This document shows positions 6,127-63,976 of a stretch of DNA of 64,000 bases, in pieces. The notes beneath the pieces are model-generated. The model did not search any database. It had not been told where the DNA came from and saw only the letters and a program-made list of their open reading frames with translations. Numbering within the stretch: position 1 is the first letter of the stretch; every line of letters starts with the position of its first letter. The stretch comes from Pegea sp. RAD2-039. Its lineage: Eukaryota > Chordata > Thaliacea > Salpida > Salpidae. The stretch is taken from positions 124,001-188,000 of the forward strand of contig JAQGEQ010000107.1 in NCBI GenBank assembly GCA_034620365.1, read 5' to 3'. Both the position numbers and the translations under genes were made by a program.

Positions 6127-7032
6127 ATGTATCAGGTTAAATGTAAAAAGCTTTTTAACTCCAGTATTGGAGTCATTGAGGCTGTTGATGAATATAAAAC
6201 TAAATCTGAAGCAGTTAAGTATTGTGAAGAGAATGTAGGAATGTTGATTTCACTCCATAATCAGTCAGTAGTTGAGGAAGTATCAGATAAATTGGTTGAT
6301 TGTTTTGATGAAAGTGGACATGAGGTTGGTAGGAAACGAGTATTGTGGCACATTGGAATCAAATGTGAGAATGGAAACTACAGTTGGGAAGATAGAAGTA
6401 AATTTGAAGAAAGAGCATTTAAAAGAAAGTGGAAATTGCCAGAAAGTAAATGCAGGAATATTTTTCTTTCTCCACGTAGGAATCTACTTCATTCCACTAA
6501 AAGAGTTACTAAATCTAGTCATCCATTTTTGTGTTTGACGAATGGTGTAGCTGAACAAACAACCACTGTATCATCTACATCAACAAAAATAGAAAACTTG
6601 CCTGTAAAAGAAGTTTATAGTTCAACTGTTGGGCTTCTTGTGGCTCTGTTTGTGCTTCTTGTAATTATTTGCTATTTAGTTTTGAAGATAATCCTTTTAA
6701 AGAAGAAGCAAAAAATAACCAGTGACAATATCGAACATCAAGAAACAACTGTTAATGACGTGGCTTATGCAGAAACTTATGAATTGATTTATGATTTGGC
6801 TGATGACGTAAGTGAAGAAGAAAGTGAAGTAGTTGGTGACGTATTAAAAGCAAGTGAAGAAGTCATCAACAAAACATGTGAAGTGATTGCTGACGTAGAA
6901 AACACTTATGAAGAAATAGAAGACGTACTAGGAAAGCGTAAAGCAGTTGAAGAACCTATAGCAGCTGAAAGACTTGAAACAGTTGAATGTCCTGAAGAAA
7001 GAATAAATATAATTTATAACATGGAATTTTGA
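6127..7032 (+). CDS. CTLD-1 receptor copy 1: lectin-like ectodomain, one TM, phosphotyrosine-type tail (301 aa)
   Basis: A single uninterrupted frame. The first ATG is at 6127; the frame is open a few codons upstream. Residues 1-60 are the family-constant part (AVKYCEEN.GMLI, like the first CTLD helix and cysteine). Residues ~66-135 are the variable half (HIGIKCENG, W.D, PFLCL as last CTLD cysteine). Residues ~140-166 are a Thr/Ser stalk, ~168-189 the TM helix, then KKKQK and an acidic tail. Cysteines are at 6, 33, 59, 80, 109 and 136; sequons at N11 and N45. Tail tyrosines: YELI (218), YEEI (261) and terminal IIYNMEF. No EPN/QPD or WND calcium site is seen, so sugar binding is doubtful. No signal peptide is visible. 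Poly(A) signal AATAAA at 7233. The ectodomain most resembles the copy at 25422; the TM is like the copy at 8915. Confidence 0.8.
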   Translation: MYQVKCKKLFNSSIGVIEAVDEYKTKSEAVKYCEENVGMLISLHNQSVVEEVSDKLVDCFDESGHEVGRKRVLWHIGIKCENGNYSWEDRSKFEERAFKRKWKLPESKCRNIFLSPRRNLLHSTKRVTKSSHPFLCLTNGVAEQTTTVSSTSTKIENLPVKEVYSSTVGLLVALFVLLVIICYLVLKIILLKKKQKITSDNIEHQETTVNDVAYAETYELIYDLADDVSEEESEVVGDVLKASEEVINKTCEVIADVENTYEEIEDVLGKRKAVEEPIAAERLETVECPEERINIIYNMEF

Positions 7033-8914
7033 TTTGAGAACAGCGATTTACTAATTTTAACGTCTATTTTATAAATTGATAAATTTCTTTCTAATTCTAA
7101 ATTATTTTCAACATTTCTTTTTAAGTGATATTTTTAACAAATCACAAGGTAAATCTATAATCTTTATATCTATATCTTGCTTTTATTATGACGTGACAAC
7201 TTTTCTATAATTGTATATTCAGCTTATTTGTAAATAAATCTTTAAAGTAATATTCAATCAAATAACCATCTATCAATCGCAGAGAGTATTTCCTTTAACT
7301 GATTATATCATAATAAAAGCTTTAAGACTATTTGGTTCCAAAATCTATTTAGTTAGTGATTGAGTCTTTCTACAAACAAGTTGATTTTAAGCTATAACAT
7401 AATTAAATTTAGATCAAAATAACTTTTTAATAAAGTTCATATTGAAATCTATTATGATAAAAGTCATACCAGCTTTCATTCAAAATTTATAATTGCTTGT
7501 ATTATAGAAACAATAGTTTTATTATAAGGTAGCAATTTTTCTTCCTTTGCAACTTTATCATAATTTAAATAGATTTATCAAGTATGGAATAAAAAACAGT
7601 TTAAAAAAACATATATAAATATTTACAAGCAAACTTTTATTAATATTAGATAACCTTACAAGTTTTTTACAGCTAACAGTAAATGGGATATTCCATTTTC
7701 AATTAAGAATCAAACTATTATTTGTCAGACTGGTTTTTATGTTTAATTCTTCACATTATTTAAATATTTTGTCACAATTCTTTTCATTATTGTTTTATGA
7801 AGGAACAGTTTCAAATGATTTAAACCTAAAAAGCTTTTTCCTATTACACTTTTAAGATTTTTGTGATTATTTAGTTAGCATCAAATTACATTTCTAAGCA
7901 ACGATAATCGTTGCTCTAACTTTTTCAGAAATTTTAAATCTTCAAACTATTGATTTTCTTTCAACTATCAAGTAACACATTTTACCGAAAAATTTCAAGA
8001 CCTTTGTAAAAACAGATTATAGAGTATCAAAGTAGGCTTAAATGAAAAATCTAACTTAGATTGATGTTTTATCAATGTATAAAATTTTTTTTGTTATTTA
8101 TTTTATATCTTTTAAGCTTATTTCCATCATATTTTCATCTAATGTTTGTATTACAGACAAATTAATTGATAATTGAAATGTGACCAACAGTTTGTACAAC
8201 TAAAACTCAACTAATTGCTTTATCTATTGAAATAACTTATATTTCAGTTACTTTTTGCTTATCTGCATTTAATTGCAAAAAATAAATTGTATTATTTTTA
8301 ACCTTGATCAAGTAATTTAGTTTTTTATGGTTTACCCAAAAGATTAAGCCATAATGACATCATCATTAATATGGTTGATTTAAAAACTCCTAAATAAAGA
8401 TGTCACTAATATAGAGTCAGACGGTTCTCGTTAAAGAAAATTATTTCCTGATTAAAAAATTTGAAATTTAAATTATTACGAACTGATTAGCCTTAATATG
8501 AAATATTTTGTGTATTTTTCAAATATTTTAATCATAGCATAATATATAACGTTTATTTTCTTACTTTGAAATTGTATTTGAATTTTTAAAATGAATATTT
8601 GCTTTTAATTTGCATCAGTTAACCTAAAAAAATTCTTTGATTATAAAAAAAACTTTCAAATTTAATTATTTCGATGAGAAGAAAAAATATGTTTCTAAAT
8701 TTAACTTGAGATCTATATAAAGTTAAATATCTATAAAAATAGATAGATATTTTTAAAGTTAGTAGATAATGAATATTTGAACTTTAATGAAAGCTAAAAA
8801 AAGTTTCTGAATAAATGATAAGATTTTCAATCAGAACTTAGTAAAACAGCTTTAAAAGTGAAACTAATTGCTTAGTACCAGAAAAGACTTCAGTACTTTA
8901 GTTTCTTTGAAAAA
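7033..8914. other. CTLD-1 intergenic unit (3' flank, spacer, A-type 5' flank)
   Basis: The first ~250 bp form a conserved 3' UTR with AATAAA at 7233. The rest is AT-rich spacer repeated almost unchanged at 9.79-11.65 kb and 16.55-18.41 kb. It holds the promoter-like block at 8355-8430. A CAG at 8891-8893, 21 nt before the next ATG, is a candidate splice acceptor. No other frame is supported. Confidence 0.6.
8355..8430 (+). promoter_or_regulatory. Conserved promoter-like block upstream of the CTLD-1 gene at 8915
   Basis: It contains TGACATCATC (ATF/AP-1-like), then TAAATAAA at 8391, and 26 nt later TCAGACGGTTCTCG, which fits a TATA-like box plus Inr spacing. The TCAG lies 498 nt before the ATG. 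The same arrangement occurs 498-500 nt before five other A-type copies. Promoter activity is inferred. Confidence 0.45.
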
Positions 8915-9784
8915 ATGATTCTTGATAAATGTAAAAAGCTTTTTAAATCCAGTATTGGAGTCATTGAGGTTGTTGATGATTTAAAAAATAGATCTGAAGC
9001 AGTTGAGTATTGTGAAGAGAATGATGGAATGTTGATTTCATTACATAATCAGTCAGTAGTTGAGGAAGTATCAGATAAATTGGTTGATTGTTTTGATGAA
9101 ACACGACACGTGGTTGATAGGCAAAGTGAATTGTGGCGAATTGGAATAAATTGTGAAAATGGAAACTACATTTGGGAAGATGGAAGCAAATTTGAAGAAA
9201 GTGAATTTGAAATAAGGTTAAAAATGGCAAATAATAAATGCCAGGATCTTTTTCTTTCTCCAGAAGAGTATGAACTTGACTCCTTTTATTGGGTACCTCA
9301 AGCTCTTCTACGATTTTTGTGTTTGAAGAACAGTGCAGCTGAACAAACAACCACTGTATCATCTACATCTACAGAAATATCAAACTTGCATGTAAAAGAA
9401 GTTTGTAGTTCAACTGTTGGGCTTCTTGTGGCTCTGTTTGTGCTTCTTGTAATTATTTGCTATTTAGTTTTGAAGATAATCCTTTTAAAGAAGAAGCAAA
9501 AAATAACCAGTGACAATATCGAACTTCAAGATACAACTGTTGATAACGTGGCTTTTGCAAAAACTTATGAATTGATTTATGATTTAGCTGATGACGTAAG
9601 TGAAGAACAAAGTGAAAGAGTTGGTGACGTATTAAAAGCAAGTGATGAAGTGATCAACAAAACATGTGAAGTGATTGCTGACGTAGAAAAAACATATGAA
9701 GAAATAGAAGATGTACCGGGAAAGCGTAAAGCAGTTGAAGGCCCTGAAGAAAGAATAAATATAATTTATAACATGGAATTTTGA
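8915..9784 (+). CDS. CTLD-1 receptor copy 2 (289 aa)
   Basis: Starts at ATG 8915 with MILDKCKKLF, so it lacks the MSQ start and the N11 sequon (KSS). The ectodomain variable half (residues ~64-130; RQSELWRIGI ... YELDSFYWVP) is nearly identical to the copy at 18418. Its TM (LFVLLVIICYLVLKIILL) instead matches the copy at 6127, so it looks like a mosaic made by conversion or unequal exchange. The tail has YELI, YEEI and the terminal IIYNMEF. Type I topology is inferred from the basic KKKQK after the TM. AATAAA at 9977. Calcium-site residues are absent. An intact, likely functional member. Confidence 0.8.
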   Translation: MILDKCKKLFKSSIGVIEVVDDLKNRSEAVEYCEENDGMLISLHNQSVVEEVSDKLVDCFDETRHVVDRQSELWRIGINCENGNYIWEDGSKFEESEFEIRLKMANNKCQDLFLSPEEYELDSFYWVPQALLRFLCLKNSAAEQTTTVSSTSTEISNLHVKEVCSSTVGLLVALFVLLVIICYLVLKIILLKKKQKITSDNIELQDTTVDNVAFAKTYELIYDLADDVSEEQSERVGDVLKASDEVINKTCEVIADVEKTYEEIEDVPGKRKAVEGPEERINIIYNMEF

Positions 9785-11657: not shown

Positions 11658-12527
11658 ATGATTCTTGATAAATGTAAAAAGCTTTTTAACTCCAGTATTG
11701 GAGTCATTGAGGTTGTTGATGATTTCAAAACTAAATCGGAAGCAGCTGAGTATTGTGAAGAGAATGATGGAATGTTGATTTCATTACATAATCAGTCAGT
11801 AGTTGAGGAAGTATCAGAAAAATTGGTTAATTGTTTTGATGAAACTGGACACGTGGTTGTTAGGAAACGAGTATTCTGGCAAATTGGAATAAACTGTGAA
11901 AATGGAAACTACATTTGGGAAGATGGAAGCAAATTTAAAGAAGGCGTATTTGAATTAAGGTGGAAATTTCCAGAAAACCATTGTGGGGATATTTATCTTT
12001 ATTCTCGCTCTAATCAACTGTGTCCCTTTTACGGGGTAGATCAATCTAGTTATCCATTTTTATGTTTGAAGAATAGTGCAGCTGAACAAACAACCTCTTC
12101 ATCATCTACATCAACAGAAATATCAAACTTGCATGTAGAAGAAGTTTGTAGTTCAACTGTTGGGCTTCTTGTGGCTATGTTTGTGCTACTTGTAATTATT
12201 TGCTGTTTAGTTTTGAAGATGACCTTTTCAAAGAAGAAGCAAAAAATAACCAGTGACAATATCGAACTTCAAGAAACAACTGTTGATGACGTGGCTTATG
12301 CAAAAACTTATGAATTGATTTATGATTTAGCTGATGACGTAATTGAAGAAGAAAGTGAAGTAGTTGGTGACGTATTAAAAGCAAGTGATGAAGTGATCAA
12401 CAAAACATGTGAAGTGATTGCTGACGTAGAAAAAACATATGAAGAAATAGAAGATGTACTGGGAAAGCATAAAACAGTTGAAGGCCCTGAAGAAAGAGTA
12501 AATATAATTTATAACATGGAATTTTGA
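11658..12527 (+). CDS. CTLD-1 receptor copy 3 (289 aa)
   Basis: ATG at 11658 (MILDKCKKLF). The N11 sequon is present (NSS). The variable half reads RKRVFWQIGI ... CGDIYLYSRSNQLCPFYG, the 'YSSSNQL' ectodomain type shared with copies at 15658 and 22414, with one extra cysteine (QLCPF). The stalk is TSSSSTSTE, the TM is MFVLLVIICCLVLKMTF and the tail carries YELI, YEEI and the terminal IIYNMEF. It opens the three-copy block that was duplicated as a whole to 18418. AATAAA at 12731. Intact; role as a surface receptor is inferred from topology. Confidence 0.8.
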   Translation: MILDKCKKLFNSSIGVIEVVDDFKTKSEAAEYCEENDGMLISLHNQSVVEEVSEKLVNCFDETGHVVVRKRVFWQIGINCENGNYIWEDGSKFKEGVFELRWKFPENHCGDIYLYSRSNQLCPFYGVDQSSYPFLCLKNSAAEQTTSSSSTSTEISNLHVEEVCSSTVGLLVAMFVLLVIICCLVLKMTFSKKKQKITSDNIELQETTVDDVAYAKTYELIYDLADDVIEEESEVVGDVLKASDEVINKTCEVIADVEKTYEEIEDVLGKHKTVEGPEERVNIIYNMEF

Positions 12528-13973: not shown

Positions 13974-14345
13974 ATGTCTCAGGTTAAATGTAAAAAGCTT
14001 CTTAACTCCAGTATTGGAGTCATTGAGGTTGTTGATGAATATAAAGTTAAATCTGAAGCAGTTAAGTATTGTGAAAGGAATGATGGAATGTTGATTCCAC
14101 TCCATAATCAGTCAGTAGTTGATAAAGTATCAAAAAAATTGGTTGATTGTTTTGATGAAAGTGGACATTTGATTGCTAGGAAAGAATCATGATGGCACAT
14201 TGGAATAAATTGTGAGAATGGAAACTACAATGGGAAGATGGAAACAGATTTGAAGAAAGTGCATTTGAAATTAAGTTCAAACAATAAAATGTTTTGATAT
14301 TTATCTTTATCCACTTGCTAATTAACTTCTTTCCATTACCGTGGT
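13974..14345 (+). pseudogene. CTLD-1 5'-half pseudogene
   Basis: The first 72 codons are intact (MSQVKCKKLL; sequons N11 and N45), then a TGA at 14190-14192 follows GHLIARKES. After the stop the homologous frame continues (WHIGINCENGNY), shifts, and decays within ~150 bp. The stalk, TM and tail are absent: sequence jumps to the B-type flank of the next gene near 14345-14390. A near-identical truncated copy is at 20731, so the truncation predates the 6.76 kb duplication. A 72-residue constant-region product is possible but unlikely to be a receptor. Confidence 0.75.
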
Positions 14346-15657: not shown

Positions 15658-16530
15658 ATGTATCAGGTTAAATGTAAAAAGCTTTTTAACTCCAGTATTG
15701 GAGTCATTGAGGTTGTTGATGATTTCAAAACTAAATCTGAAGCAGTTAAGTATTGTGAAGAAAATGATGGAATGTTGATTCCATTTCATAATCAGTCAGT
15801 AGTTGAGGAAGTATCAGATAAGTTGGTTGATTGTTTTGATGAAAGTGGACATCTGATTGCTAGGAAAGAACTATGGTGGCACATTGGAATAAGTTGTGAG
15901 AATGGAAACTACATTTGGGAAGATGGAAGCAAATTTAAAGAAGGTGTATTTGAATTAAAGTGGAAATTGCCAGAAAACCATTGTGGGGATATTTATCTTT
16001 ATTCTAGCTCTAATCAACTGTTTCCCGTTGACGGGGTAACTCAATCAAGTTATCCATTTTTGTGTTTGAAGAATAGTGCAGCTGAACAAGCAACCACTTC
16101 ATCATCTACATCAACAGAAATATCAAACTTGCATAAAAAAGAAGTTTGTAGTTCAACTGTTGGGCTTCTTGTGGCTTTGATTGTGCTACTTGTAATTATT
16201 TGCTGTTTAATTTTGAAGATGACCTTTTCAAAGAAGAAGAAAAAATTAACCAGTGACAATATCGAACTTCAAGAAACAAATGTTGGTGACGTAGTTTATA
16301 CTGACGCTGATGAATTCATTTATGATGTAGCTGATGACGTAATTGAAGAAGAAACTGAAAGAGGTGTTGGTGTATTAAATAAAGCAAGTGAAGAAGTGAT
16401 CAACAAATCAAGTGAAGTGATTGCTGACGTAGAAAACACATATGAAGAAATAGAAGATGTACTGGAAAAGCGTAAAGCAGTTGAAGGCCCTGAAGAAAGA
16501 ATAAATATAATTTATAACATGGAACTTTGA
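15658..16530 (+). CDS. CTLD-1 receptor copy 4 (290 aa)
   Basis: First ATG at 15658 (MYQVKCKKLF, as in the copy at 6127). The ectodomain is of the YSSSNQL type (CGDIYLYSSSNQLFPVDG) and nearly identical to the copy at 22414. Stalk ATTSSSTSTE, TM LIVLLVIICCLILKMTF, then KKKKK. The tail differs from copies 1-3: YTDADEFIYDV replaces YELIYDL, so the first YxxI is lost, but YEEI and the terminal IIYNMEL are kept. AATAAA at 16733. Its flank is B-type, so promoter control may differ from A-type copies. Confidence 0.8.
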   Translation: MYQVKCKKLFNSSIGVIEVVDDFKTKSEAVKYCEENDGMLIPFHNQSVVEEVSDKLVDCFDESGHLIARKELWWHIGISCENGNYIWEDGSKFKEGVFELKWKLPENHCGDIYLYSSSNQLFPVDGVTQSSYPFLCLKNSAAEQATTSSSTSTEISNLHKKEVCSSTVGLLVALIVLLVIICCLILKMTFSKKKKKLTSDNIELQETNVGDVVYTDADEFIYDVADDVIEEETERGVGVLNKASEEVINKSSEVIADVENTYEEIEDVLEKRKAVEGPEERINIIYNMEL

Positions 16531-18417: not shown

Positions 18418-19251
18418 ATGATTCTTGCTAAATGTAAAAAGCTTTTTAAATCCAGTATTGGAGTCATTGAGGCTGTTGATGACCTTAAAACTAAATCTGA
18501 AGCAGTTAAGTATTGTGAAGAGAATGATGGAATGTTGATTCCACTCCATAATCAGTCAGTAGTTGAGGAAGTATCAGATAAATTGGTTGATTGTTTTGAT
18601 GAAACTGGACACGTGGTTGATAGGCAAAGTGAATTGTGGCGAATTGGAATAAATTGTGAAAATGGAAACTACATTTGGGAAGATGGAAGCAAATTTGAAG
18701 AAAGTGAATTTGAAATAAGGTTAAAAATGGCAAATAATAAATGCCAGGATCTTTTTCTTTCTCCAGAAGAGTATGAACTTGACTCCTTTTATTGGGTACC
18801 TCAAGCTCTTCTACGATTTTTGTGTTTGAAGAACAGTGCAGCTGAACAAACAACCACTGTATCATCTACATCTACAGAAATATCAAACTTGCATGTAAAA
18901 GAAGTTTGTAGTTCAACTGTTGGGCTTCTTGTGGCTATGTTTGTGCTATTTGTTATTATTTGCTGTATAGTTTTGAAGATGACCTTTTCAAAGAAGAAGC
19001 AAAAAATAACCAGTGACAATATCGAACTTCAAGAAACAACTGTTGATGACGTGGCTTTTGCAGAAACTTATGAATTGATTTATGATTTAGCTGATGACGT
19101 AAGTGAAGAAGAAAGTGAAAGAGTTGGTGACGTATTAAAAGCAAGTGAAGAAGTGATCAACAAAACATGTGAAGTGGTTGCTGACGTAGAAAAAACATAT
19201 GAAGAAATAGAAGATGTACTGGGAAAGGGTAAATCAGTTGAAGGCCCTTAA
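18418..19251 (+). CDS. CTLD-1 receptor copy 5, tail-truncated (277 aa)
   Basis: ATG at 18418 (MILAKCKKLF; N11 sequon lost). The ectodomain is almost identical to the copy at 8915 (YELDSFYWVP type) but the TM (FVLFVIICCIVLKMTF) differs. The tail keeps YELI and YEEI, then ends at EGP because a GAA codon is TAA at 19249-19251. The lost end would carry the terminal IIYNMEF, still readable in the 3' flank. This is a clean loss of one tyrosine motif and the protein should still be a receptor. AATAAA at 19488. Confidence 0.8.
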   Translation: MILAKCKKLFKSSIGVIEAVDDLKTKSEAVKYCEENDGMLIPLHNQSVVEEVSDKLVDCFDETGHVVDRQSELWRIGINCENGNYIWEDGSKFEESEFEIRLKMANNKCQDLFLSPEEYELDSFYWVPQALLRFLCLKNSAAEQTTTVSSTSTEISNLHVKEVCSSTVGLLVAMFVLFVIICCIVLKMTFSKKKQKITSDNIELQETTVDDVAFAETYELIYDLADDVSEEESERVGDVLKASEEVINKTCEVVADVEKTYEEIEDVLGKGKSVEGP

Positions 19252-20730: not shown

Positions 20731-21100
20731 ATGTCTCAGGTTAAATGTAAAAAGCTTCTTAACTCCAGTATTGGAGTCATTGAGGTTGTTGATGAATATA
20801 AAGTTAAATCTGCAGCAGTTAAGTATTGTGAAAGGAATGATGGAATGTTGATTCCACTCCATAATCAGTCAGTAGTTGATAAAGTATCAGAAAAATTGGT
20901 TGATTGTTTTGATGAAAGTGGACATTTGATTGCTGGGAAAGAATCATGATGGCACATTGGAATAAATTGTGAGAATGGAAACTACAATGGGAAGATGGAA
21001 ACAGATTTGAAGAAAGTGCATTTGAAATTAAGTTCAAACAATAAAATGTTTTGATATTTATCTTTATCCACTTGCTAATTAACTTCTTTCCATTACCGTG
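20731..21100 (+). pseudogene. CTLD-1 5'-half pseudogene (duplicate of 13974)
   Basis: It has 72 intact codons, then TGA at the same place as the 13974 copy (…HLIAGKES, stop). The same frame shift and decay follow, and the same jump into B-type flank. It differs from 13974 by only a few substitutions (for example SAAV for SEAV), which dates the block duplication after the truncation. Confidence 0.75.
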
Positions 21101-22413: not shown

Positions 22414-23298
22414 ATGTCTCAGCTTAAATGTAAAAAACTTTTTAACTCCAGTATTGGAGTCATTGAGGCTGTTGATGATTTCAAAAATAAATCTGAAGCA
22501 GTTGAGTATTGTGAAGAGAATGATGGAATGTTGATTCCACTCCATAATCAGTCAGTAGTTGATGAAGTATCAGATAAGTTGGTTGATTGTTTTGATGAAA
22601 GTGGACATCTGATTGCTAGGAAAGATGCATTGTGGCAAATTGGAATAAGTTGTGAGAATGGAAACTACATTTGGGAAGATGGAAGCAAATTTAAAGAAGG
22701 TGTATTTAATTTAAAGTGGAAATTGCCAGAAAATAAATGTGGGGATATTTATCTTTATTCTAGCTCTAATCAACTGTTTCCCGTTGACGGGGTAACTCAA
22801 TCTAGTTATCCATTTTTGTGTTTGAAGAATAGTGCAGCTGAACAAGCAACCACTTCATCATCTACATCAACAGAAATATCAAACTTGCATGTAGAAACAG
22901 CTTGTAGTTCAACTGATGGGCTTCTTGTAGTTCTGCTTGTGCTACGTGTGATTATTTGCTGTCTATTTTTGGGGATAATCTTTTCAAAGAAGAAGCAAAA
23001 AATAACCAATGAAAAAATCGAACTTCAACAAGCAAGTGTTGATGACGTAATTTTTGTACAACCTGATGAATTGAATTATGTTGTGCTTGGCGATGCAATT
23101 TCGAAAAAAAATAAAGGAAGTGATGACGTATTTACAAAAGTAGACATAGCATGTAAAGAAGTGACCAACAAAACATGTGAAGTGATTGTTGACGTGGAAC
23201 ACACTTATGAAGAAATAGAAGACTTAATAGGAAAGCGTGAAGCAGATGAAGAACCTATAGCAGCTAAAAGACAGTTGAAGACCCTGAAGAAAGAATAA
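22414..23298 (+). CDS. CTLD-1 receptor copy 6 with divergent tail (294 aa)
   Basis: First ATG at 22414 (MSQLKCKKLF). The ectodomain is nearly the same as the copy at 15658 (YLYSSSNQLFPVDG). The TM is altered (GLLVVLLVLRVIICCLFLGI), with an arginine inside the hydrophobic stretch that no other copy has. The tail is much more diverged (NEKIELQQAS ... ELNYVVLGDAI) but keeps TYEEIEDL. The C-terminus is frameshifted relative to its paralogues (RQLKTLKKE, stop), removing the terminal YNM motif. AATAAA at 23525. Fast tail change may mean relaxed constraint or altered signalling, for example an adaptor contact through the TM arginine; that is inference. Confidence 0.78.
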   Translation: MSQLKCKKLFNSSIGVIEAVDDFKNKSEAVEYCEENDGMLIPLHNQSVVDEVSDKLVDCFDESGHLIARKDALWQIGISCENGNYIWEDGSKFKEGVFNLKWKLPENKCGDIYLYSSSNQLFPVDGVTQSSYPFLCLKNSAAEQATTSSSTSTEISNLHVETACSSTDGLLVVLLVLRVIICCLFLGIIFSKKKQKITNEKIELQQASVDDVIFVQPDELNYVVLGDAISKKNKGSDDVFTKVDIACKEVTNKTCEVIVDVEHTYEEIEDLIGKREADEEPIAAKRQLKTLKKE

Positions 23299-23942: not shown

Positions 23943-24117
23943 GTCCTGCTTGGTGGAGAGGCGGTTATTACACCTAGCTACAAGGTACCTCTAGCTGGGA
24001 AGTACCGGATTCGACCCCAGGTGGATACATATTTATAAAACACCTGAAAAAAACTGTAAAAAACTCGTGAGAATGTGTGTTAGCGAGATGTGCTCTCCTT
24101 AGGCACCCTCCTACACG
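23943..24117 (+). mobile_element. tRNA-derived SINE with LINE-type 3' tail
   Basis: The head has an A-box-like GGTGGAGAGGCGG, then GGTTATTACACCTA, and a B box GGATTCGACCCC near 24006. A short linker leads to TGAGAATGTGTGTTAGCGAG ... GGCACCCTCC, the 3' end of the local CR1/L2-like LINE. This is the usual build of a SINE mobilised by a partner LINE. Flanks contain an imperfect ~50 bp repeat ending in ATAATAATTATGCA, perhaps an old target-site duplication. The SINE accounts for most of the extra length of this interval relative to the homologous unit. Confidence 0.8.
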
Positions 24118-25421: not shown

Positions 25422-26246
25422 ATGTCCCAGGTTAAATGCAAAAAGCTTTTGAACTCTAGTATTGGAGTCATTGAGGCTGTTGATGATCCAAAGTTTAAAA
25501 CTGAAGCAGTTAAGTATTGTGAAGAGAATGATGGAATGTTGATTTCATTACATAATCAGTCAGTAGTTGAGGAAGTATCAGATAAATTGGTTGATTGTTT
25601 TGATGAAAGTGGACATCTGGTTGGTAGAAAACGAGTATTGTGGCACATTGGAATCAAGTGTGAGAATGGAAAATACAGTTGGGAAGATGGAAGTAAATTT
25701 GAAGAAAGTGCATTTGAAAGAAAGTGGAAATTACCAGAAAATCAATGCAGAAATATTTGTCTTTCTCCACGTAGGAATCTACTTCTTTCCGTTGACGGAG
25801 CAACTAAATCTAGTCATCCATTTTTGTGCTTGAAGAATAGTGTAGCTGAACAAACAACTACTTCATCATCTACATCAACAGAAATATCTAACTTGAATGT
25901 AGAAGAATATTCTGGTTTAACTGTTGGGCTTCTTGTGGCTATGTTTCTGCTATTTGTAATTATTTGCTGTTTAATTTTGAAGATGACCTTTTCAAAGAAG
26001 AAGCAAAAAATAACCAGTGACAATATCGAACTTCAAGAAACAACTGTTGATGACGTAGTTTATGCTGAAGCTGATGAATTCATTTATGATGTAGCTCATG
26101 ACGTAATTGAAGGAGAAAGTGAAGTAGTTGGTGACGTATTAAAAGCAAGTGAAGAAGTGACCAACAAAACATGTGAAGTGGTTGCTGACGTAGAAAAAAC
26201 ATATGAAGAAATAGAAGATGAACTGGGACAGCATAAAACAGTTTAA
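25422..26246 (+). CDS. CTLD-1 receptor copy 7, tail-truncated (274 aa)
   Basis: ATG at 25422 (MSQVKCKKLL). The ectodomain is of the 'RRNLL' type shared with the copy at 6127 (RKRVLWHIGI ... CRNICLSPRRNLL). Stalk TTTSSSTSTE, TM MFLLFVIICCLILKMTF, tail with VVYAEADEFIYDV and YEEI. A GAA-to-TAA change at 26244-26246 ends the protein at HKTV, before the terminal IIYN motif that remains readable downstream. This is independent of the stop at 19249. AATAAA at 26492. It is the first gene of the segment that recurs at 37.6 kb and, inverted, at 63.98 kb. Confidence 0.8.
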   Translation: MSQVKCKKLLNSSIGVIEAVDDPKFKTEAVKYCEENDGMLISLHNQSVVEEVSDKLVDCFDESGHLVGRKRVLWHIGIKCENGKYSWEDGSKFEESAFERKWKLPENQCRNICLSPRRNLLLSVDGATKSSHPFLCLKNSVAEQTTTSSSTSTEISNLNVEEYSGLTVGLLVAMFLLFVIICCLILKMTFSKKKQKITSDNIELQETTVDDVVYAEADEFIYDVAHDVIEGESEVVGDVLKASEEVTNKTCEVVADVEKTYEEIEDELGQHKTV

Positions 26247-31014: not shown

Positions 31015-31752
31015 ATGAGTCAGAAAAAAATTCAAAAAATAAATAATAAAGAAAATAAGTTTTTTTGTTCCAGTATTGGTGTGATTGAAGCAGTAAATTT
31101 AAACAAAACTAAAACTGAATCTACCAAATATTGTAAAGAAAATGATGGAGTGTTGATTCCATTACATAATCAGAAGATAGTTGATGAAGTGTCTGATAAA
31201 CTTATGAATGTTAAAATCCTTGAAAAAAGAAGACGGATTCGAGTTGGACTTGTTTGTAAGAACGGAAGCTATCAGTGGCAAGATGGAATGAAGTTTAATG
31301 AAAAGAATTATGATCCAAGTTTGCAGTTTTCAACCGATAGCTGTCAAAACTTCTATCTTCAACGTGGAAATAGCAGCAAGAAGTTCCAACTTACAGCAGA
31401 TCATTTCGACTACTTTGCTCCATTTTTATGTTTAAGGAATGGTATGACTAAACCAACAACAAAAATACCAACAACTGCATTTACAGAAGCAAAAGGTCTC
31501 TCTCTGTCTAGTAACAGACAAACAACAACTTTTTATAATGGTAGCAATAAAGCAGGCTCTAACAACTTTCTCTTGATTGGTTTATCTGTTGGATCAGTTC
31601 TGATCTTTGTATTTATTTGTTATATGGTTTTAAAAAAGACTCTTCTTAAGAAAAAGGAGCAAAAATATGTTGCCAATGATATTGAGCTTCAAGATGCTAA
31701 GATTGAAGAGGAAGAAGACGTAAATCAGCAAAGAGAAGAAAGTCACCTTTAG
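31015..31752 (+). CDS. CTLD-2 receptor, short-tailed copy (245 aa from first ATG)
   Basis: First ATG at 31015 (MSQKKIQKIN); 16 codons upstream are also open and conserved at 42.05 kb. Order: CTLD (KYCKENDGVLIPLHNQ, RVGLVCKNGSYQWQDG, DSCQNFYLQ, PFLCLRN), Thr-rich stalk with SSNRQTTT, TM LLIGLSVGSVLIFVFICYMV, then LLKKKEQK. Compared with CTLD-1, the cysteine pair equivalent to C6/C59 is not kept as a pair. The tail is short and acidic, ends REESHL, and has none of the YN(L/M) or IYS motifs of the 42102 gene. From the stop onward, sequence matches the 3' end of the CBM14 gene (56.07-56.64 kb), so the 3' end was probably swapped in. No signal peptide visible. Confidence 0.75.
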   Translation: MSQKKIQKINNKENKFFCSSIGVIEAVNLNKTKTESTKYCKENDGVLIPLHNQKIVDEVSDKLMNVKILEKRRRIRVGLVCKNGSYQWQDGMKFNEKNYDPSLQFSTDSCQNFYLQRGNSSKKFQLTADHFDYFAPFLCLRNGMTKPTTKIPTTAFTEAKGLSLSSNRQTTTFYNGSNKAGSNNFLLIGLSVGSVLIFVFICYMVLKKTLLKKKEQKYVANDIELQDAKIEEEEDVNQQREESHL

Positions 31753-33880: not shown

Positions 33881-34319
33881 ATTTATATTAGAAAATCTAT
33901 AAACAACTTTTAGATAAATTTTTTTAATAAACATTTATTTTGTGAACTATAAATTTGACTTTACATTTAACATTCATTTGTTTCATAAAGTTGTTTCAAT
34001 TAACTAAACAGTAAATTAAATATTAAGTACTCCGATATAAGCTAAAAATACTGGTTATAACGGATTAGTGTATTGATTTAAATACACAATAACTTAAGTT
34101 ATAAAATTTATTAAAAGTTTACTAACTATTAAAATAATAAAATATTTAGTTGTGTTTTATAAGTAGACATTCTAAATTATTCATAAATAGAATCATTTTT
34201 TCAATATCAAGGAAATAAACTTTTCAGAAAAAGAAAAAAAAAAAAGACAAAGAAAAGAGTTTGACTTTAAAACTGAAAGAAATTTTTTTAACTAAAGTAA
34301 GACTAAACCACCAAGAAAA

Positions 34320-34685
34320 ATGCCAACAACTGCATTTACAGAAGCAAAAACAAATCGTTTATCTAGTAACAAACAAACAACAACTTTGTTTACTAGTAGC
34401 AATAAAGTAGGTTCTAATAACTTTCTCGTGATTGGCTTATCTGTTGGATCAGTTCTGCTATTTGTATTTATTTGCTACGTGGTTTTTAAGATAGTTCTTT
34501 TCAAAAAGAAAAAGACAGAAAGATCAAATACTGAAGATATTGAGCTTAACATCGCCAGTAATAATGATGTAGTTGATGACTTTTCTCAAGACCAAGTTGA
34601 TGAACAAGAAGAAAGAATAAATATTCTCTATAATCTTGATGATGATGATCTTATTTACTCAACGGTAGATGACAATCAGCGATAA
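34320..34685 (+). pseudogene. CTLD-2 'stub': stalk, TM and tail without the lectin domain (121 aa frame intact)
   Basis: The CTLD-2 5' flank (33.88-34.29 kb) runs straight into the stalk (TTAFTEAKTN), deleting about 0.4-0.5 kb that encodes the ectodomain. What remains is open from ATG 34320: a Thr-rich stalk, TM (FLVIGLSVGSVLLFVFICYVV), FKKKK, and a full tail with EERINILYNL and DLIYSTV. LIYSTV fits the ITIM consensus (L.Y..V). Either a pseudogene or a ligandless decoy or signalling stub. No signal peptide, but the TM could act as a signal anchor. Confidence 0.6.
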
Positions 34686-37604: not shown

Positions 37605-38501
37605 ATGTCTCAGGTTAAATGTGAACAATTTCTTAACTCCAGTATTGGAGTCATTGAGGTTGTTGATGATTTCAAAACTAAATCTGAAGCAGCTGAGTAT
37701 TGTGAAGAGAATGATGGAATGTTGATTTCATTACATAATCAGTCAGTAGTTGAGGAAGTATCAGATAAATTGGTTGATTGTTTTGATGAAACTGGACACG
37801 AGGTTGTTAGGAAAGAAGTATTCTGGCGAATTGGAATAAATTGTGAAAATGGAAACTACATTTGAGAAGATGGAAGCAAATTTGATGAAAGCTTATTATT
37901 TTTAAAGTGGAATTTGCCAGAAAGCAAATGTGAGGAGATTAATCTTCATCCTCCTGCTAATCAGCTGTTTTCAATTCCTGAGGTACCTGTAGGTAAATCT
38001 AGACATCCATTTTTATGTTTGAAGAATGGTGCAGCTGAACAAACAACTACTTCAACATCTACATCAACAGAAATATCAAACTTGCATGTAGAAGAAGTTT
38101 GTAGTTCAACTGTTGGGCTTCTTGTGGCTATGTTTGTGCTACTTGTAATTATTTGCTGTTTAATTTTGAAGATGACCTTTTCAAAGAAGAAGAAAAAAAT
38201 AACCAAAGACAATATCGAACTTCCGGAAACAACTGTTGATGACGTAGTTTATGTTGACGCTGATGACTTCATTTATGATGTAGCTGATGACGTAATTGAA
38301 GGAGAAAGTGAAAGAGTTGGTGATGTATTAAAAGCAAGTGAAGAAGTGATCAACAAAACATGTGAAGTGATTGCTGACGTAGAAAAAACATATGAAGAAA
38401 TAGAAGATGAACTGGGAAAGCGTGAAGCGATTGAAGAACCTATAGCAGCTGAGAGACCTGAAACAGTTGAAGGCCATGAAGAAGGACTAAATATACTTTA
38501 A
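37605..38501 (+). pseudogene. CTLD-1 copy with one internal stop, near-twin of the gene at 63976
   Basis: ATG at 37605 (MSQVKCEQFL). The 298-codon frame is whole except for TGA at 37863-37865 in place of the invariant Trp of NYIWEDG. The ectodomain type is HPPANQL (EINLHPPANQLFSIPEVPVG), shared only with the inverted copy at 63080-63976. The TM and tail are normal (DADDFIYDV, TYEEIEDEL) but the tail ends EGLNIL where TAT became TAA, so the terminal Tyr motif is lost, as in its twin. The flank has lost the promoter-like block. Probably a recent pseudogene; if the stop is a sequencing error or is read through it would be a full receptor. Confidence 0.75.
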
Positions 38502-41045
38502 AAAATGGAATTTTGATTTGAGAATAGTGATTTACTGATTATATTGAAGTCGCAAGGACAGTTTTTCATATAGAAGGTGAAGATTAAATAATAAATATTT
38601 TCTCAAGAATTATTATGTACAGATCATATAATAAAAAAAGATTTTAAATTATTTGGTTCATAAACTGATTTATTTAATGATTGAGTCTTTGTACAAAAAA
38701 GTTATTTTAAATTATAAAATATTTAAATTAATAGAAAAAAAATTCTATATTCAATTTGTTATTAACAAATTTTAATTATTTAATTTGCTCGATAAATAAT
38801 TGACAAAATAGGAACAACAAATCTATTGTGTAAAGAGGTGATAACTTGATTTATTGAAACTTGAAATATTTGTAGCAAGGTACTAAAAGTTGAATATAAA
38901 AAAGTTGGAATTTTGTATTTTTAGAATGTTCGTACTGAATGTTAACGATGAAGAAACTTTTAATTCTAAATTCAAATAAACATTTCTATAAAGCAGTTTA
39001 TTTTCAGGGTTTTAATTTATGAATAAGTAGTGCGAAAACCTTAATTTATTTTTTAATTTTAAGTTATCCAAGTATTAAATACTTTTGTACATAATTATTT
39101 AATTTGCTTGAACTATAAGAAAGTTTAGTATTTAATTAATAACTTAATAGTATTCTATTTTTCAAATTTGTTTTTCCAAAACAAACTCAATGAAGAAATT
39201 CAAAATAAATTCATTATTAGTTTTATTGTTAGGTTTCTAAAATACTGTAATAAACTAAAACCTGAAAAGTGAAGAATAACATCTTGTTAGACAATTAAAA
39301 ATTAGTCACATAACCTTTTTCACAAAAATTATTCTGTATTTTAAATATACTTTTGTAAATTTGTAATAATAAAAATTTTTTAAACATTTAAGTAAAACAT
39401 CCTTAAGTTTATTTAGTTTAAGAAAGTAAAAGAATAAGCTAAAAATAACATTTAAAAATAATTAATAAATTTTAAAAAGCTAAATACAGATTATTTAATT
39501 TAGTTAGTTTTCTAAAAATCATTAAAACATCAACCTCTAACTAAGAAATTTACAGTTTAATACATAAGAAGTTGTTGTCAAGCTTATAGTACAACTTAAT
39601 AACTTTTTAAACCTCGTTGTAAATAAACTTTATTTGTTTATCTTAAAACCTTCAAAAACAATTTAAAATTTAAAAGCAACTTTTGACTTATTATAATTAT
39701 AAAAGTCATGGTTTATATTTGAATTAAAATAGATCATTTAAAATATACAAAAAACAATTATTTTTTATCTAATTAAAATATTCTGTGTACTTAACATCTT
39801 TTAAAAAAATAATAATTTGTTGTCTAAACTGAAAATATACTTTGGTTTAATACTTTTGAGGAAAAGTAATAAAATAAAAATAAATTTATAGAATGACTAC
39901 TACTGTTATCTAAATTCACATTAAATAAAATATGATTGAACAACTAAAAAAAATACTAAATGCTAAAATAAAAAAAGTTAAATTTGAGTTTTATTTAGCA
40001 ACAAAATAAAAATATTTTTCTTATAACAAATTTATAAAAAATTTCTTATCAAAACAAATAAATACTTTAGAAACATAATAGTAGTAAGTAAAGTTTTAAA
40101 TTTTAGTGTTTATTTAATTTAATAAAAGTTCAGTTTATAATAAAAAATATTACAGATTGATTTTCTTATAAATTCTATTTGAATAAGTGCTTATATGCTG
40201 TGATAAAGTTATTTTTAGCAATTGATTTGTATATTATATATAAATTATAAATTGTGGTTGGTGATACTGAAAAGCTTCCATGAAAACTATGGTGGGCCAA
40301 AATAAAAGTGGCAAGACCTTAAGTTCAAATGTAATCAAAAATCCTGATTAACCAACTTCTTCAAAGCAAGCTTACAATGGTAATTGTCAGGTTTAAAAGA
40401 AGTTAAAAATTGTATCCTTTATTTAATTTTATATCTTATTTTTGAACAACTAAACAAATATTCTTTTTTTTTCTAAAATAAATATCCTTTAAAGTAACTT
40501 TTAATTTAATAACAAATATTAATAAGTTTGAATTGTGTTTATTATTATGCTATCAAAAATATTTATATTAAGTAAACTACCAGTTATATAAAAAAACTTA
40601 AAAGTTTTTATTTATAGTATAAAAATTTAAAATTCAAAATTAAGCTTTAAATATTATTTGTTGCTTAAATAAATAAAAAATATTTCCTAATGAAATGTTA
40701 ATAAACATGATATTTATTAAACAATACAATATTTTGTATCTATATTAATATTTTTTTATAACATAAAACATAACATTCATTTTATTAATTTACAAGAATT
40801 AAAATTTCAAGAAAATATTTACATCAATTTGTAACAATTAGCTAGGAATAACATCTTTGATTACAATAAGTTTATCTACATGAGATTTTCTACTGAATAG
40901 TACTTATAAGTTGTAATAAAATCATTTTTAGTAAGTGTTTTGTTAATTTCTGATAAATTATTTTCTCTGGATAATAAATTGATTAGAAATTGTTGGTATG
41001 GTTACATCAAAAATCCTTCATAAAAGTAAACAGTATGGTGTTTAA
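38502..41045. other. Second copy of the duplicated spacer, TAZ interval deleted
   Basis: 38550-40250 aligns with 26.8-29.87 kb and with inverted 59.99-62.97 kb. At about 39255 the sequence jumps from CTAAAACCTG to TGAAGAATAACATCTTG, skipping ~1.25 kb that holds the TAZ gene in the other copies. 40270-40395 is a decayed first copy of the PHD fragment start. 40400-40880 is unique AT-rich sequence. No gene is seen. Confidence 0.6.
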
Positions 41046-42101: not shown

Positions 42102-42968
42102 ATGATTCAGAATAGAAGTCAAAGGGTAGCGGAATTTTTTAATTCCAGTATCGGTGTGATTGAAGCAGTAAGTTTACAGAAAAATAAAACTGAAGCCACC
42201 AAATACTGTAAGGAGAATGATGGAATGTTGATTCCATTACATAATCAGAAGATAGTTGATGAAGTATCTGATAAGCTTATCGACGTTAAAATCCTTAAAG
42301 AAAGAAGATGGATTCGAGTTGGACTTGATTGTAAAAATGGAATATATCAGTGGCAAGATGGAATAAGGTTTCATAAAAATAATTATGATCCAAGTTTGCA
42401 TTTGTCAACCGATAGCTGTCAAAACTTATATCTTCAACGTGGAAATAGCCGCAAGAAGTTCCATCTTACAGGAGCTCGTTCGGACTATACTGTTCCATTT
42501 TTATGTTTAAGGAATGGTATGACTAAACCAACAACAAAAAGGCCAATAACTGCATTTACAGAAGCAAAATATATTTTTCTGTCTAGTAACAGACAAACAA
42601 CACTTCCTTTGACAGAACCAACAAGCAAACCTTTCACTAGTAACAGACAAACAACAACTTTATTTACTGGTAGCAATAAAGTAGATTATAATAACTTTCT
42701 CTTGATTGGTTTATCTGTTGGATCAGTTCTGTTATTTGTATTTATTTGCTACATGCTTTTGAAGATAGCTCTTCTTATAATGAAGAAGAAAGAAAGATCA
42801 ACTACTGAAGATGGTAATAGTGAAGAGCTTACTAATGCAAGTGATACTGACGTAGTTCATGACGTGTCTCTTGACCAAAATGAAGAACAAGAAGAAAGAA
42901 TAAATATTCTTTATAATCTTGATGATGAAGATCTTATTTACTCAATGACAGATGATAATCAACGATAA
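42102..42968 (+). CDS. CTLD-2 receptor, full-tailed copy (288 aa from first ATG)
   Basis: First ATG at 42102 (MIQNRSQRVAEFF); upstream codons to 42054 are open and match 30.97 kb. CTLD: NSSIGVIEAV, KYCKENDGMLIPLHNQ, WIRVGLDCKNGIYQWQDG, DSCQNLYLQ, PFLCLRN, with four cysteines only. The stalk is longer than in 31015, with SSNRQTT duplicated. TM LLIGLSVGSVLLFVFICYML, then KKKERS. Tail: acidic, EERINILYNLDDEDLIYSMT. The EERIN(I/L)xYN(L/M) block is shared with full-tailed CTLD-1 proteins, so this tyrosine motif is ancestral to both subfamilies. A surface receptor is inferred; no signal peptide is visible in the frame. Confidence 0.78.
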   Translation: MIQNRSQRVAEFFNSSIGVIEAVSLQKNKTEATKYCKENDGMLIPLHNQKIVDEVSDKLIDVKILKERRWIRVGLDCKNGIYQWQDGIRFHKNNYDPSLHLSTDSCQNLYLQRGNSRKKFHLTGARSDYTVPFLCLRNGMTKPTTKRPITAFTEAKYIFLSSNRQTTLPLTEPTSKPFTSNRQTTTLFTGSNKVDYNNFLLIGLSVGSVLLFVFICYMLLKIALLIMKKKERSTTEDGNSEELTNASDTDVVHDVSLDQNEEQEERINILYNLDDEDLIYSMTDDNQR

Positions 42969-56069: not shown

Positions 56070-56690
56070 AGAGCTAAGAACCTTAGGTTTGCTGATATTG
56101 TAGCCTTACATAATCTAGACACCTACGTATTCATGATACTAATTCTTAACAGCATCATTCAAATGATGATGTCATTTATTTTTGTATTTCTGATTTTAAA
56201 CGGATATTTTTTTTCTAATATTTTTCTAAATCTCATAAGAGCCATCAGCCTAAAACTTCTTGTAAACATTCATTCTTCAAATTTTAATCTTTTAAAATCT
56301 TTGTTTTCTTAAGTTTATTTGTTGATAGCTTTTCTTATCGTTACTTAACTTTTTATATAAAAATTGTTGCTTATTGTTGACGAATCTTTTAAAGATGTGG
56401 AAACTATCAGCTTCTAATAATGTTTAGTTTCCATAATATATATCTACAACTTAATTGAAGATGGTAATTTTGTTTAGCAATATGCTGATCATCTCTTTAT
56501 GCAATTAATAAAACTTTGTTGTAACATGGTGGTCCAAAATAATTATAATATCTTGAATATATCATCATTTAAATACATTCCAAAAAAGTTTTTTCACGTG
56601 TAATCATTTAATTATCTCAGATCAGTTTTTACAGAAATTAATTAATAGGTTTAAAGTAGTTCAGGAAAAAGTATTCAAGTTCGCAGTTGC
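56070..56690. other. 3' flank of the CBM14 gene, shared with the CTLD-2 gene at 31015
   Basis: Starts like the CBM14 introns (GCTGATATTG, AATCTAGACACC, TCATTCAAATGATG) and then aligns with 31.78-32.27 kb. No gene is seen. Confidence 0.55.
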
Positions 56691-56694
56691 CACC

Positions 56695-57245
56695 AGATAA
56701 GTGTCAAAACCTATACCTTCGACGTGGAAGTAGCAGCAAGAAGCATCAAGTTACAGGAAGTCGTTCGGACTATTTTGTTCGATTTTTATGTTTAAGGAAT
56801 AGTCAGACTAAACCAACAAAAAAAGGCTAGCAATTACATTTACAGAAGTAAAAGATAGTTTTAGTAACAGACAAACAACAATTACTTCGACTGAACCAAC
56901 CAATAAACTCTTCACTAGTAACAGACAAACAACAACTTTATTTACTGGTAGCAATAAAGAAGGTTCTACCAACTTTCTCCTGATTGATTTATCTGTTGGA
57001 TCAGTTCTGTTATTTGTATTTATTTGCTACATGCTTTTGAAAATAGCTCTTCTTATAATGAAGAAGAAAAAAAGATCAACTCCTGAAGATATTGAGCTTA
57101 TTAATGCAAGTGGTACTGACCTAGTTGATGAAGTGCCTCATGACCAAGTTGATGAACAAGAAGAAAGAATAAATATTCTTTAAAATCTTGATGATGATGA
57201 TTTTATTTACTCAATGACAGATGATAATCAACGATCAATCACCTA
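56695..57245 (+). pseudogene. CTLD-2 3'-half pseudogene
   Basis: It begins within the CTLD (DKCQNLYLRRGSSSKK, VRFLCLRN). The stalk contains a stop (TAG after KKG) and a frameshift. The second SNRQTTT stalk repeat, TM (LLIDLSVGSVLLFVFICYML) and tail follow. A TAA replaces the Tyr of LYNL (56.. NIL, stop, NLDDDD), so even the tail is cut. Closest to the 42102 gene (same long stalk). The 5' half is missing: upstream is the CBM14 3' flank. Confidence 0.75.
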
Positions 57246-58245: not shown

Positions 58246-58249
58246 CTTT

Positions 58250-61029: not shown

Positions 61030-61499
61030 ATGTCACTAGATTTTAACTGTCTAACAAGATGTTTTTCTTCACTATTATTTAGAAAAGAACCTGCAATAAT
61101 GCCCTTAAGAAATATTGTCAAAATATTTAATGTTGAAAAACTAGATTTCATTAGATACCTTACTAGTGGTGAACCTCCAGTAAAAGTACATACACCCAAA
61201 ACCATTGGTAAGATAATTCAAGTCAAGTTACTATATCATAAGTTGATGCATGCCTAAGTATGCTTGGTTACAAACCAACAAGGTGAATATGGATGTTGTG
61301 GTTGTTGTAAAGATCTCAATTATATTCTTTCACATGTTAGTTTATGTAAGGATTGTAATAGTTGTAATGAATACTTTTGTTTTTTTATAAAACATTTGTT
61401 GAATCATTATAATAACTGTGATAGAATTAATTGCTTTTTTTGTAAGCCTTGTGAAAACGGTCAAAAATGTTTAAATTGTTCATTGGTGGTTTCTGTTGA
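61030..61499 (+). pseudogene. TAZ1 zinc-finger pseudogene (inverted copy of 28384-28854)
   Basis: Nearly identical to the intact gene over 470 bp, including all zinc-site residues. It has TAA at 61255-61257 where the intact copy reads CAA (LMHAQVC), and one A fewer near 61465 that changes the end after ENGQK. The rest of the finger (NQQGEYGCCG onward) remains open. Probably a young pseudogene. An AATAAA follows at about 61592. Confidence 0.7.
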
Positions 61500-63079: not shown

Positions 63080-63976
63080 TTAAAGTATATTTATTCCTTC
63101 TTCATGGCCTTCAACTGTTTCAGGTCTCTCAGCTGCTATAGGTTCTTCAATCGCTTCACGCTTTCCCAGGACATCATCTATTCGTTCATAAGTGTTTTCT
63201 ACGTCAGCAATCACTTCACATGTTTTGTTGATGACTTCTTCACTTGCTTTTAATACATCACCAACTCTTTCACTTTCTCCTTCAATTACGTCATCAGCTA
63301 CATCATAAATGAATTCATCAGCGTCAGCATAAACTACGTCATCAACAGTTGTTTCCGGAAGTTCAATATTGTCACTTGTTATTTTTTGCTTCTTCTTTGA
63401 AAAGGTCATCTTCAAAATTAAACAGCAAATAATTACAAGTAGCACAAACATAGCCACAAGAAGCCCAACAGTTGAACTACAAAATTCTTCTACAGGCAAG
63501 TTTGAGATTTCTGTTGATGTAGATGATAAAGTAGTTGTTTGTTCAGCTGCACTATTCTTCAAACATAAAAATGGATGTCTAGATTTACCTACAGGTAGCT
63601 CCGGAATTGGAAACAGCTGATTAGCAGGAGGATGAAGATTAATCTCCTCACATTTGCTTTCTGGCAAATTCCACTTTAAAAATAATAAGCTTTCATCAAA
63701 TTTGCTCCCATCTTCCCAAATGTAGTTTCCATTTTCACAATTTATTCCAATTCGCCAGAATATTTCTTTCCTCGCAACCAGATGTCCACTTTCATCAAAA
63801 CAATCAACCAATTTATCTGATACTTCATCAACTACTGACTGATTATGGAGTGGAATCAACATTCCATCATTTCTTTCACAATACTCAACTGCTTCAGATT
63901 TAGTTTTGAAATCATCAACAACCTCAATGACTCCAATACTGGAGTTAAAAAGCTTTTTGCATTTAGCCTGAGACAT
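63080..63976 (-). CDS. CTLD-1 receptor, inverted copy (298 aa)
   Basis: ATG at 63974-63976 on the minus strand (MSQAKCKKLF). Uninterrupted frame: constant N-terminal half, variable half of HPPANQL type (EINLHPPANQLFPIPELPVG), PFLCLKN, Thr/Ser stalk, TM (MFVLLVIICCLILKMTF), KKKQK and acidic tail. It keeps the invariant W of NYIWEDG that is a stop in its twin at 37605. In the tail the usual YEEI is YERI, and the end is EGINIL with the terminal YN motif lost, as in the twin. It is the intact member of this ectodomain type. Its 5' flank is cut by the window end. Confidence 0.8.
   Translation of the reverse strand: MSQAKCKKLFNSSIGVIEVVDDFKTKSEAVEYCERNDGMLIPLHNQSVVDEVSDKLVDCFDESGHLVARKEIFWRIGINCENGNYIWEDGSKFDESLLFLKWNLPESKCEEINLHPPANQLFPIPELPVGKSRHPFLCLKNSAAEQTTTLSSTSTEISNLPVEEFCSSTVGLLVAMFVLLVIICCLILKMTFSKKKQKITSDNIELPETTVDDVVYADADEFIYDVADDVIEGESERVGDVLKASEEVINKTCEVIADVENTYERIDDVLGKREAIEEPIAAERPETVEGHEEGINIL

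Follow-up and report, generated by a model that had tools for sequence, protein, structure and literature searches.

Genes that read as single-exon C-type lectin-like receptors: a large, mosaic family with a candidate role in recognition

What kind of protein is encoded by a crowded and partly decayed gene array, and what might such a protein recognise? The question is raised by a stretch of 64,000 nucleotides (hereafter the window, numbered from its first letter) that corresponds to positions 124,001 to 188,000 of contig JAQGEQ010000107.1 (here C100; coordinates with this prefix are those of the contig) in the 105.7-Mb, 387-contig assembly of Pegea sp. RAD2-039 (GCA_034620365.1). The window is AT-rich, with a G + C content of ~21–31% per 2-kb block, and carries repeated genes for a protein with an N-terminal C-type lectin-like domain (CTLD), a stalk, a transmembrane (TM) helix and a tail. 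A preliminary description had counted at least thirteen copies in two subfamilies, comprising full genes, half genes, stubs and pseudogenes, and this count is borne out: a tblastn search of the window with one subfamily A and two subfamily B proteins, merged with whole-genome matches, gave 15 family places, 11 of them A-type (nine long copies and two stubs) and four B-type (two long copies and two fragments). The long A copies are 70–81% identical in protein to the copy at 15658. The cluster is indeed present within the 58 kb originally delimited, but the array extends far beyond, over C100:62972–393290, where it comprises 45 places and reaches within ~120 bases of the contig end; within the window, the copy at 63976 is inverted.

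We suggest, with a probability of roughly one half, that these genes belong to a lineage-specific superfamily of single-exon, single-pass CTLD recognition receptors, whose likeliest targets are non-self. Receptor families that are both large and variable usually point to recognition under conflict. Each protein would carry an N-terminal, Ca-independent CTLD, followed by a stalk that is usually rich in Ser and Thr, by a TM helix flanked C-terminally by lysines and by a disordered tail, which in most families would carry SH2-docking tyrosines. The helix would act as a reverse signal-anchor (type III) that places the CTLD outside, where its variable loops would contact a range of proteins or glycans, most likely on the non-self surfaces of microbes or parasites; ligand binding would drive the phosphorylation of tyrosines, which would recruit Src-, PI3K- and Crk-type SH2 proteins. 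Short-tail copies may be decoys or adaptor-dependent forms, and tandem duplication together with short gene-conversion tracts would keep the repertoire changing. More tentatively, one may picture an undescribed animal superfamily of more than 100 copies in which the reverse signal-anchor surfaces the CTLD and short gene-conversion tracts in the loops diversify its binding face; that the germline of a small-genomed invertebrate would in this way shuffle a repertoire for recognition is part of the same extended picture, and is likewise possible rather than probable.

The scale of the family is set by the genome-wide search, which gave at least 129 places: 45 in the C100 array, 35 on contig C107, 12 on C200 and 9 on C22. 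These are matches with E ≤ 0.001, joined when they lay within 700 bases of each other on one strand, and form a lower bound that includes fragments, in which one gene may yield two places and the weakest matches may belong to other CTLDs. Further matches beyond this set came from a query of the C107 branch. From the window and the genome, 40 genes were examined for gene start and cysteines, and 38 (two stubs excluded) for motifs and topology.

That the ectodomain is lectin-like, as had been proposed, is supported by structure prediction. The modelled protein of the 15658 copy is predicted to adopt a CTLD fold, aligns over 111–124 residues with long-loop CTLDs in the PDB, and has NKR-P1, NKp80, CLEC-2 and dectin-1 among its fold matches. 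A ‘compact’ CTLD without the long loop was also considered and was dropped because of the 23-residue loop (88–110) in the model and the alignment with long-loop CTLDs. All six window proteins scanned align with Pfam Lectin_C at 16.7–20.3 bits (cut-off 22.6), and some members elsewhere exceed the cut-off (e.g. C100:228942, at 28.6 bits). The calcium-site motifs EPN, QPD and WND are each absent from all 38 copies, in agreement with the preliminary description.

The canonical C1–C4 cysteines are kept throughout: Cys33 occurs in all 40 rows, and Cys136 in each of the 38 that cover its position, which the two stubs do not. Two further pairs are patchier. Of the 40 genes, 24 have both Cys6 and Cys59, 15 have neither, and L019, a locus with an internal stop, has only Cys6; Cys80 and Cys109 are both missing from the C247 and C107b copies, L021 lacks Cys80 only, and the two stubs lack the Cys109 region. 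Going by this covariation in the sequences, the putative pairs Cys6–Cys59 and Cys80–Cys109 come and go together; because the group lacking Cys6 and Cys59 is a single clade (support 100/100), the covariation rests on few independent events.

Where does such a protein begin? An in-frame Met lies shortly ahead of the domain in all 40 genes, with an in-frame stop 1–27 codons further upstream; in L038 and L040 a stop falls between that Met and the domain. In the long window copies a single frame runs from ATG to stop, apart from the stops listed below, as the earlier claim of one exon per complete copy would have it. A more conventional explanation would be that these are ordinary spliced type I receptors, whose signal peptide is encoded by an upstream exon joined to an acceptor in the first codons, and that its absence is an artefact of annotation. 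Consistent with this, a pyrimidine-rich AG that could serve as a splice acceptor lies at codon ~13 in many, though not all, copies (A, B, L022, L023, L027 and L028), a point that counts against single-exon genes. Additionally, other CTLD exons of the genome look like internal exons: the eight best Lectin_C matches, used as a control, have no Met directly before the domain, several begin (by eye) at acceptor-like sequence, and five of the eight carry EPN. In these respects the control matches also contrast with the family genes, which speaks for the single-exon reading of the latter. However, the codon-13 AG is missing from the C107a, C107b and C247 copies, and splicing there would remove a Met and a Cys that are kept across deep branches, the Cys covarying with Cys59. 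The N-terminal Cys is present in 25 of the 40 genes (the other 15 are subfamily B and stand outside this comparison), and in four of these 25 (L020, L021, L024 and L028) the stretch from the in-frame stop to that Cys contains no AG, which leaves no acceptor for in-frame splicing of an upstream exon.

The flanking sequence bears on the same alternative. Hydrophobic ATG frames do occur upstream, as a signal-peptide exon would require, but only in some copies, and related stretches contain stops in L019, 13974 and 20731. B copies are 84–93% identical over the 100 bases that precede the ATG; when B3 is compared with other B copies, homology is near chance by 200–300 bases in five of eight comparisons and lost by ~500 bases against L031 and L037, persisting further out only in the recent pair B3/B1. 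Recent A duplicates are likewise similar further upstream (A4/A6 throughout, A4/A1 to ~900 bases). Between two A classes homology breaks at the ATG, with 51–53% identity in the first 100 upstream bases, whereas the 11658 and 25422 copies are 88–89% alike to 15658 over the first 300 bases around and after the ATG. The upstream frames were therefore rejected as a signal-peptide exon on the grounds of patchy presence, stops and loss of homology. A second candidate, the acceptor ‘TCTCAG’ just 3′ of the ATG, was rejected because copies 8915, 11658 and 18418 do not have it and because of the four genes without an AG before the Cys. Among metagenome relatives, P0002–P0005 start at a Met shortly before the domain and P0001 has a Met at residue 17, which is weak evidence because the frames are predicted. 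Judged from the genomic sequence, each gene reads as a single exon that opens at an ATG shortly ahead of the domain and encodes no signal peptide, and we consider spliced type I receptors quite unlikely.

In none of the 38 proteins (of at least 180 residues) does any 12-residue stretch near the N-terminus average more than 1.82 on the Kyte–Doolittle scale. A TM helix is found in 35 of the 38 (19-residue mean 2.39–3.57), as expected from the single TM of the preliminary description, and the flank following it is more positive than the flank preceding it in 34 of these 35, with a tie in B3, which suggests an N-outside, C-inside orientation. The Ser/Thr stalk described earlier was recovered as well: Ser and Thr make up 33% of stalk residues on average (range 5–45%), stalk length is 14–109 residues, and subfamily B stalks are lengthened by repeats of a Thr-rich unit.

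The acidic, Tyr-bearing tail is supported too. Tail motifs were counted in 12 family representatives against 2000 shuffles, and three SH2-type classes were enriched, none of their counts being reached in any shuffle: YxE[ILVP] (10 against 2.0 expected, in seven families), YxxM (6 against 0.85, in six families) and YxxP (12 against 2.9, in five families, six of the 12 lying in the C36 tail alone). Of these classes, YxEI is of the Src type, YxxM of the PI3K type and YxxP of the Crk/Abl type. Among the same representatives the generic Yxx[ILV] was not significant (157/2000 shuffles), immunoreceptor tyrosine-based inhibitory motif (ITIM)-like sequences fell under expectation (1 against 4.2, in one of the 12), and spacing like that of immunoreceptor tyrosine-based activation motifs (ITAMs) was at expectation (1 against 1.1, in one of the 12). 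Among the window copies, YEEI is found in A1 to A8 and YERI in A9. The SH2-type motifs of the preliminary description thus hold as three enriched types, but vary by copy rather than marking every tail. The subfamily B short-tail forms 31015, L033 and L042 stop where their paralogs have a Tyr motif. At the other extreme, L051 (C36) has a 384-residue tail with repeated Tyr blocks of the YxEP and YxVP type and 30 tyrosines in all.

If the CTLD is a recognition surface, where does it vary? Among ten A copies, 34 of 138 CTLD sites hold at least three residues, and 28 of the 34 lie in segments 58–75 and 88–131, where 15.3 would be expected (reached in 0 of 5000 permutations). The ratio of nonsynonymous to synonymous differences per site (pN/pS) in this subfamily is 0.98 in the loops and 0.55 in the rest of the CTLD. 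Subfamily A variation concentrates in what would be the binding-face loops.

Mosaicism, which had been claimed from the start, is evident in significantly long common tracts between copies, found by a permutation test in 8 of 45 A pairs and 11 of 45 B pairs. One case is the inverted pair L038/L040, which lies 184 kb apart and has 19 differences in 3567 bases, 12 of them within 91 bases and 11 of those between the C109 and C136 codons. Among the loci compared, the L038 patch is closest to L030 (98.75%) and the L040 patch to L041 (95.7%); of 12 changes in the first 150 codons, 10.5 are nonsynonymous by path counting. Since L038 and L040 both have an early stop, this patch, a single tract, shows the process of exchange and not selection. 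The densest difference window of L041/L043 lies at the same place but within chance (14, with uniform placement reaching 15 in 1000), and those of L039/L042 and L034/L035 lie outside the CTLD. C100:199448–204406 and 388335–393290 form an inverted duplication, 99.5% identical over the 3.6 kb compared and running nearly to the contig end; it may be a genuine inverted repeat, or it may result from an assembly or haplotype join.

Several results weigh against recognition receptors as we have outlined them. The loop boundaries used in the variable-site and pN/pS tests were set after the alignment had been seen; subfamily B has no loop excess (pN/pS 0.78 in loops against 0.85); the ratio of nonsynonymous to synonymous substitution rates (dN/dS) in the CTLD is 0.63–0.85 and never above 1; and B3 carries none of the three enriched tail motifs. 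Translocation of an N-terminal domain of ~165 residues without a signal peptide would be unusual, and N-glycosylation sequons, at 1.2 per 100 residues outside and 0.9 in the tail, differ so slightly in density that they do not decide the topology. Finally, many copies may be drifting pseudogenes. Taken further, this last point would make the whole a relaxed, largely non-functional birth-and-death array, with high pN/pS produced by drift and no role in recognition. The dN/dS values of 0.99–1.28 in stalk plus tail of both subfamilies, and of 1.50 in the TM of A (0.59 in B), would agree with such an array, as would the 7 of 15 window copies that are broken, truncated or late-stopped, to which the short tail of B1 is additional. 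We nevertheless hold it to be rather improbable, given that core residues and cysteine pairs are retained across deep branches, that most C107 and C200 matches have no internal stop, that A variation is localised to the loops and that SH2 motifs are enriched.

A recognition role need not be an immune one. The same architecture could serve in surface receptors that recognise self or mates, as in contact chemoreception or in the recognition of gametes or colonies; variation would then persist because individuals or species have to be distinguished, and the structural evidence (fold, cysteines, tail motifs, exchange and loop variation) is common to both readings. Were the animal a monogonont rotifer, there would be a precedent, contact mate recognition by surface glycoproteins being known in that group (PMC2746195). 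The Brachionus mate recognition genes (MMR) described there have, however, another architecture, with a signal peptide followed by tandem repeats of 87–92 codons and no recognizable homology; one MMR-B primer had no match in the present genome at up to three mismatches, and 129 places are many for a mate cue. Nor did the bdelloid spliced leader match, which does not discriminate, since B. plicatilis is reported to lack one, and a COX1 search gave no hit; the idea of a rotifer thus gained no support from either sequence test, leader or primer. We judge self or mate recognition unlikely and continue to prefer receptors for non-self. If confirmed, the family would offer a defined receptor repertoire in a small-genome animal for the study of immunity or individual recognition, and a natural variant set for how a long N-terminal domain crosses the membrane of the endoplasmic reticulum without a signal peptide.

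The copies in the window show how the array is built; all but the last are on the forward strand. A1 (6127..7032; 301 aa) is full-length, with CTLD, stalk, TM and tail in one frame, as are A2 (8915..9784; 289 aa), A3 (11658..12527; 289 aa) and A4 (15658..16530; 290 aa); A2 has a long tract (alignment nucleotides 195–524) in common with the 18418 copy, and the modelled A4 protein is divided into a CTLD (1–140), a predicted TM (~167–195) and a tail (196–290). Between A3 and A4 lies an A stub (13974..14273) of which ~85 first codons align, with an internal TGA and the remainder of the gene gone. A5 (18418..19251; 277 aa) has lost ~12 C-terminal residues, the terminal Tyr among them, to a stop in the tail, with a remnant to 19284, and is followed by a second stub of ~85 codons (20731..21030), sister of the first and duplicated together with the gene downstream, A6 (22414..23298; 294 aa), a full frame with a divergent tail end. 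The stub-plus-gene unit 13974/15658 recurs as 20731/22414 with a spacing of 1684 and 1683 nt, and the two units are, on this sequence evidence, a segmental duplication. A7 (25422..26246; 274 aa) has its tail shortened by a stop, with a remnant to 26285. B1 (31015..31752; 245 aa) has a tail stop where the long-tail paralogs L034 and L037 carry a Tyr motif, and a B fragment at 34296..34685 retains only stalk, TM and tail. A8 (37605..38513) is nearly full length except for a nonsense TGA at the conserved Trp87 codon (37863–37865). B3 (42102..42968; 288 aa) is full-length, with a longer Thr-rich stalk of repeated units; a second B fragment (56648..57234) runs from the C-terminal half of the CTLD through the tail in a broken frame. 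A9 (63080..63976, reverse strand; 298 aa) is an inverted full frame that stops short of the terminal YNMEF of other A copies. No internal stop occurs in the frames at 6127, 8915, 11658, 15658, 22414, 42102, 63976 (reverse strand) and, with its short tail, 31015.

Other elements are interspersed. Inside the receptor array, at 46340–56250, lie about nine tandem units of ~1130 nt. Most of them contain two exon-like frames, which read as a Cys-rich domain of the chitin-binding type (peritrophin-A, CBM_14); when a single unit was scanned, its second frame barely exceeded the Pfam cut-off, and its first frame alone had no CBM_14 match. To judge from the frames, the units make up either a single gene with many such domains or a series of tandem genes. 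An inverted pair at 28384–28878 (reverse) and 61030–61566 (forward), 96% identical and with a sub-threshold TAZ zinc-finger match, belongs to a patchwork of inverted matches between 27.4–39.4 kb and 60.5–64 kb that also holds A8 and A9. Just upstream of the A8 pseudogene, 36885–37408 is a perfect tandem duplication of a 264-nt unit. The left edge of the window (88–2837, forward) carries frames of a secretin-type G protein-coupled receptor, of which 88–372 and 1128–1556 match 7tm_2 and 2550–2837 has no match. Frames at 35978–36376 and 58449–59293 (both reverse) look like retrotransposon remnants, with no Pfam match at E 0.1, and Rfam and tRNA scans of the 64-kb window gave no match.

How, then, does this family relate to known systems? 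A search of the literature, outside most subscription journals, returned nothing recognised as this receptor family, and its database relatives are five unnamed metagenome proteins (P0001–P0005) from a set of 5.8 billion, in searches that scored limited candidate sets (in one, the best 8000 candidates). Some CTLDs of the natural killer (NK) complex lack the classic Ca site and are borne on a stalk, a single TM and a Tyr-bearing tail, which in NK-complex receptors contains an ITIM or ITAM. The present genes resemble the receptors of that complex (the NKR-P1, CLEC-2 and DECTIN-1 cluster) in CTLD, stalk, single TM, Tyr tail and clustered genes. NK-complex receptors are type II proteins, whose tail, TM and stalk are each encoded by a single exon and whose CTLD is spread over several (PMC3322459). 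Here, in contrast, the order is reversed (CTLD–stalk–TM–tail), the genes read as single exons, two cysteine pairs differ, and ITIM- and ITAM-like motifs are not enriched in the 12 tails counted. The NK-receptor-like character seen in the preliminary description is consequently retained as an analogy only, because of the reversed order, the one-exon reading and the lack of an encoded signal peptide. Its immune, self/non-self and allorecognition readings are candidate roles; allorecognition loci are marked by high allelic polymorphism between individuals, and the present analysis covered a single genome.

Large lineage-specific CTLD expansions are found in the clec genes of C. elegans and in other invertebrate C-type lectins, with members that have signal peptides and CUB or repeated CTLDs; the expansion is alike here, but there is no signal peptide, and a TM and a tail with SH2 motifs are added. 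Ca-dependent carbohydrate-binding C-type lectins differ in having the motifs absent from the 38 copies. Type III (reverse signal-anchor) proteins such as neuregulin-1 have a long N-terminal ectodomain, an internal TM anchor and no signal peptide; the anchoring type would be the same, although neuregulin-1 is an EGF/immunoglobulin growth factor without a CTLD. In rotifers, 25 secretory C-type lectins are listed for B. calyciflorus and 17 for B. plicatilis in a survey that required a signal peptide and no TM (Gerdol 2022, PMC8878817). Both these and the present proteins are CTLD proteins of small invertebrates, but the latter have one TM and no signal peptide that we could find, and a family like this one would have been excluded by design. 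More generally, surveys that filter on a signal peptide or a Pfam cut-off would miss much of the family, so similar families may be overlooked elsewhere. The two rotifer sources also describe the Brachionus mate recognition protein differently: as a C-type lectin with a TM (PMC8878817, 2022) and as a signal peptide plus repeats without recognizable homology (PMC2746195, 2009). Set beside all of these systems, the family is real, large and mosaic, and consists of CTLD receptors whose start and orientation are unusual.

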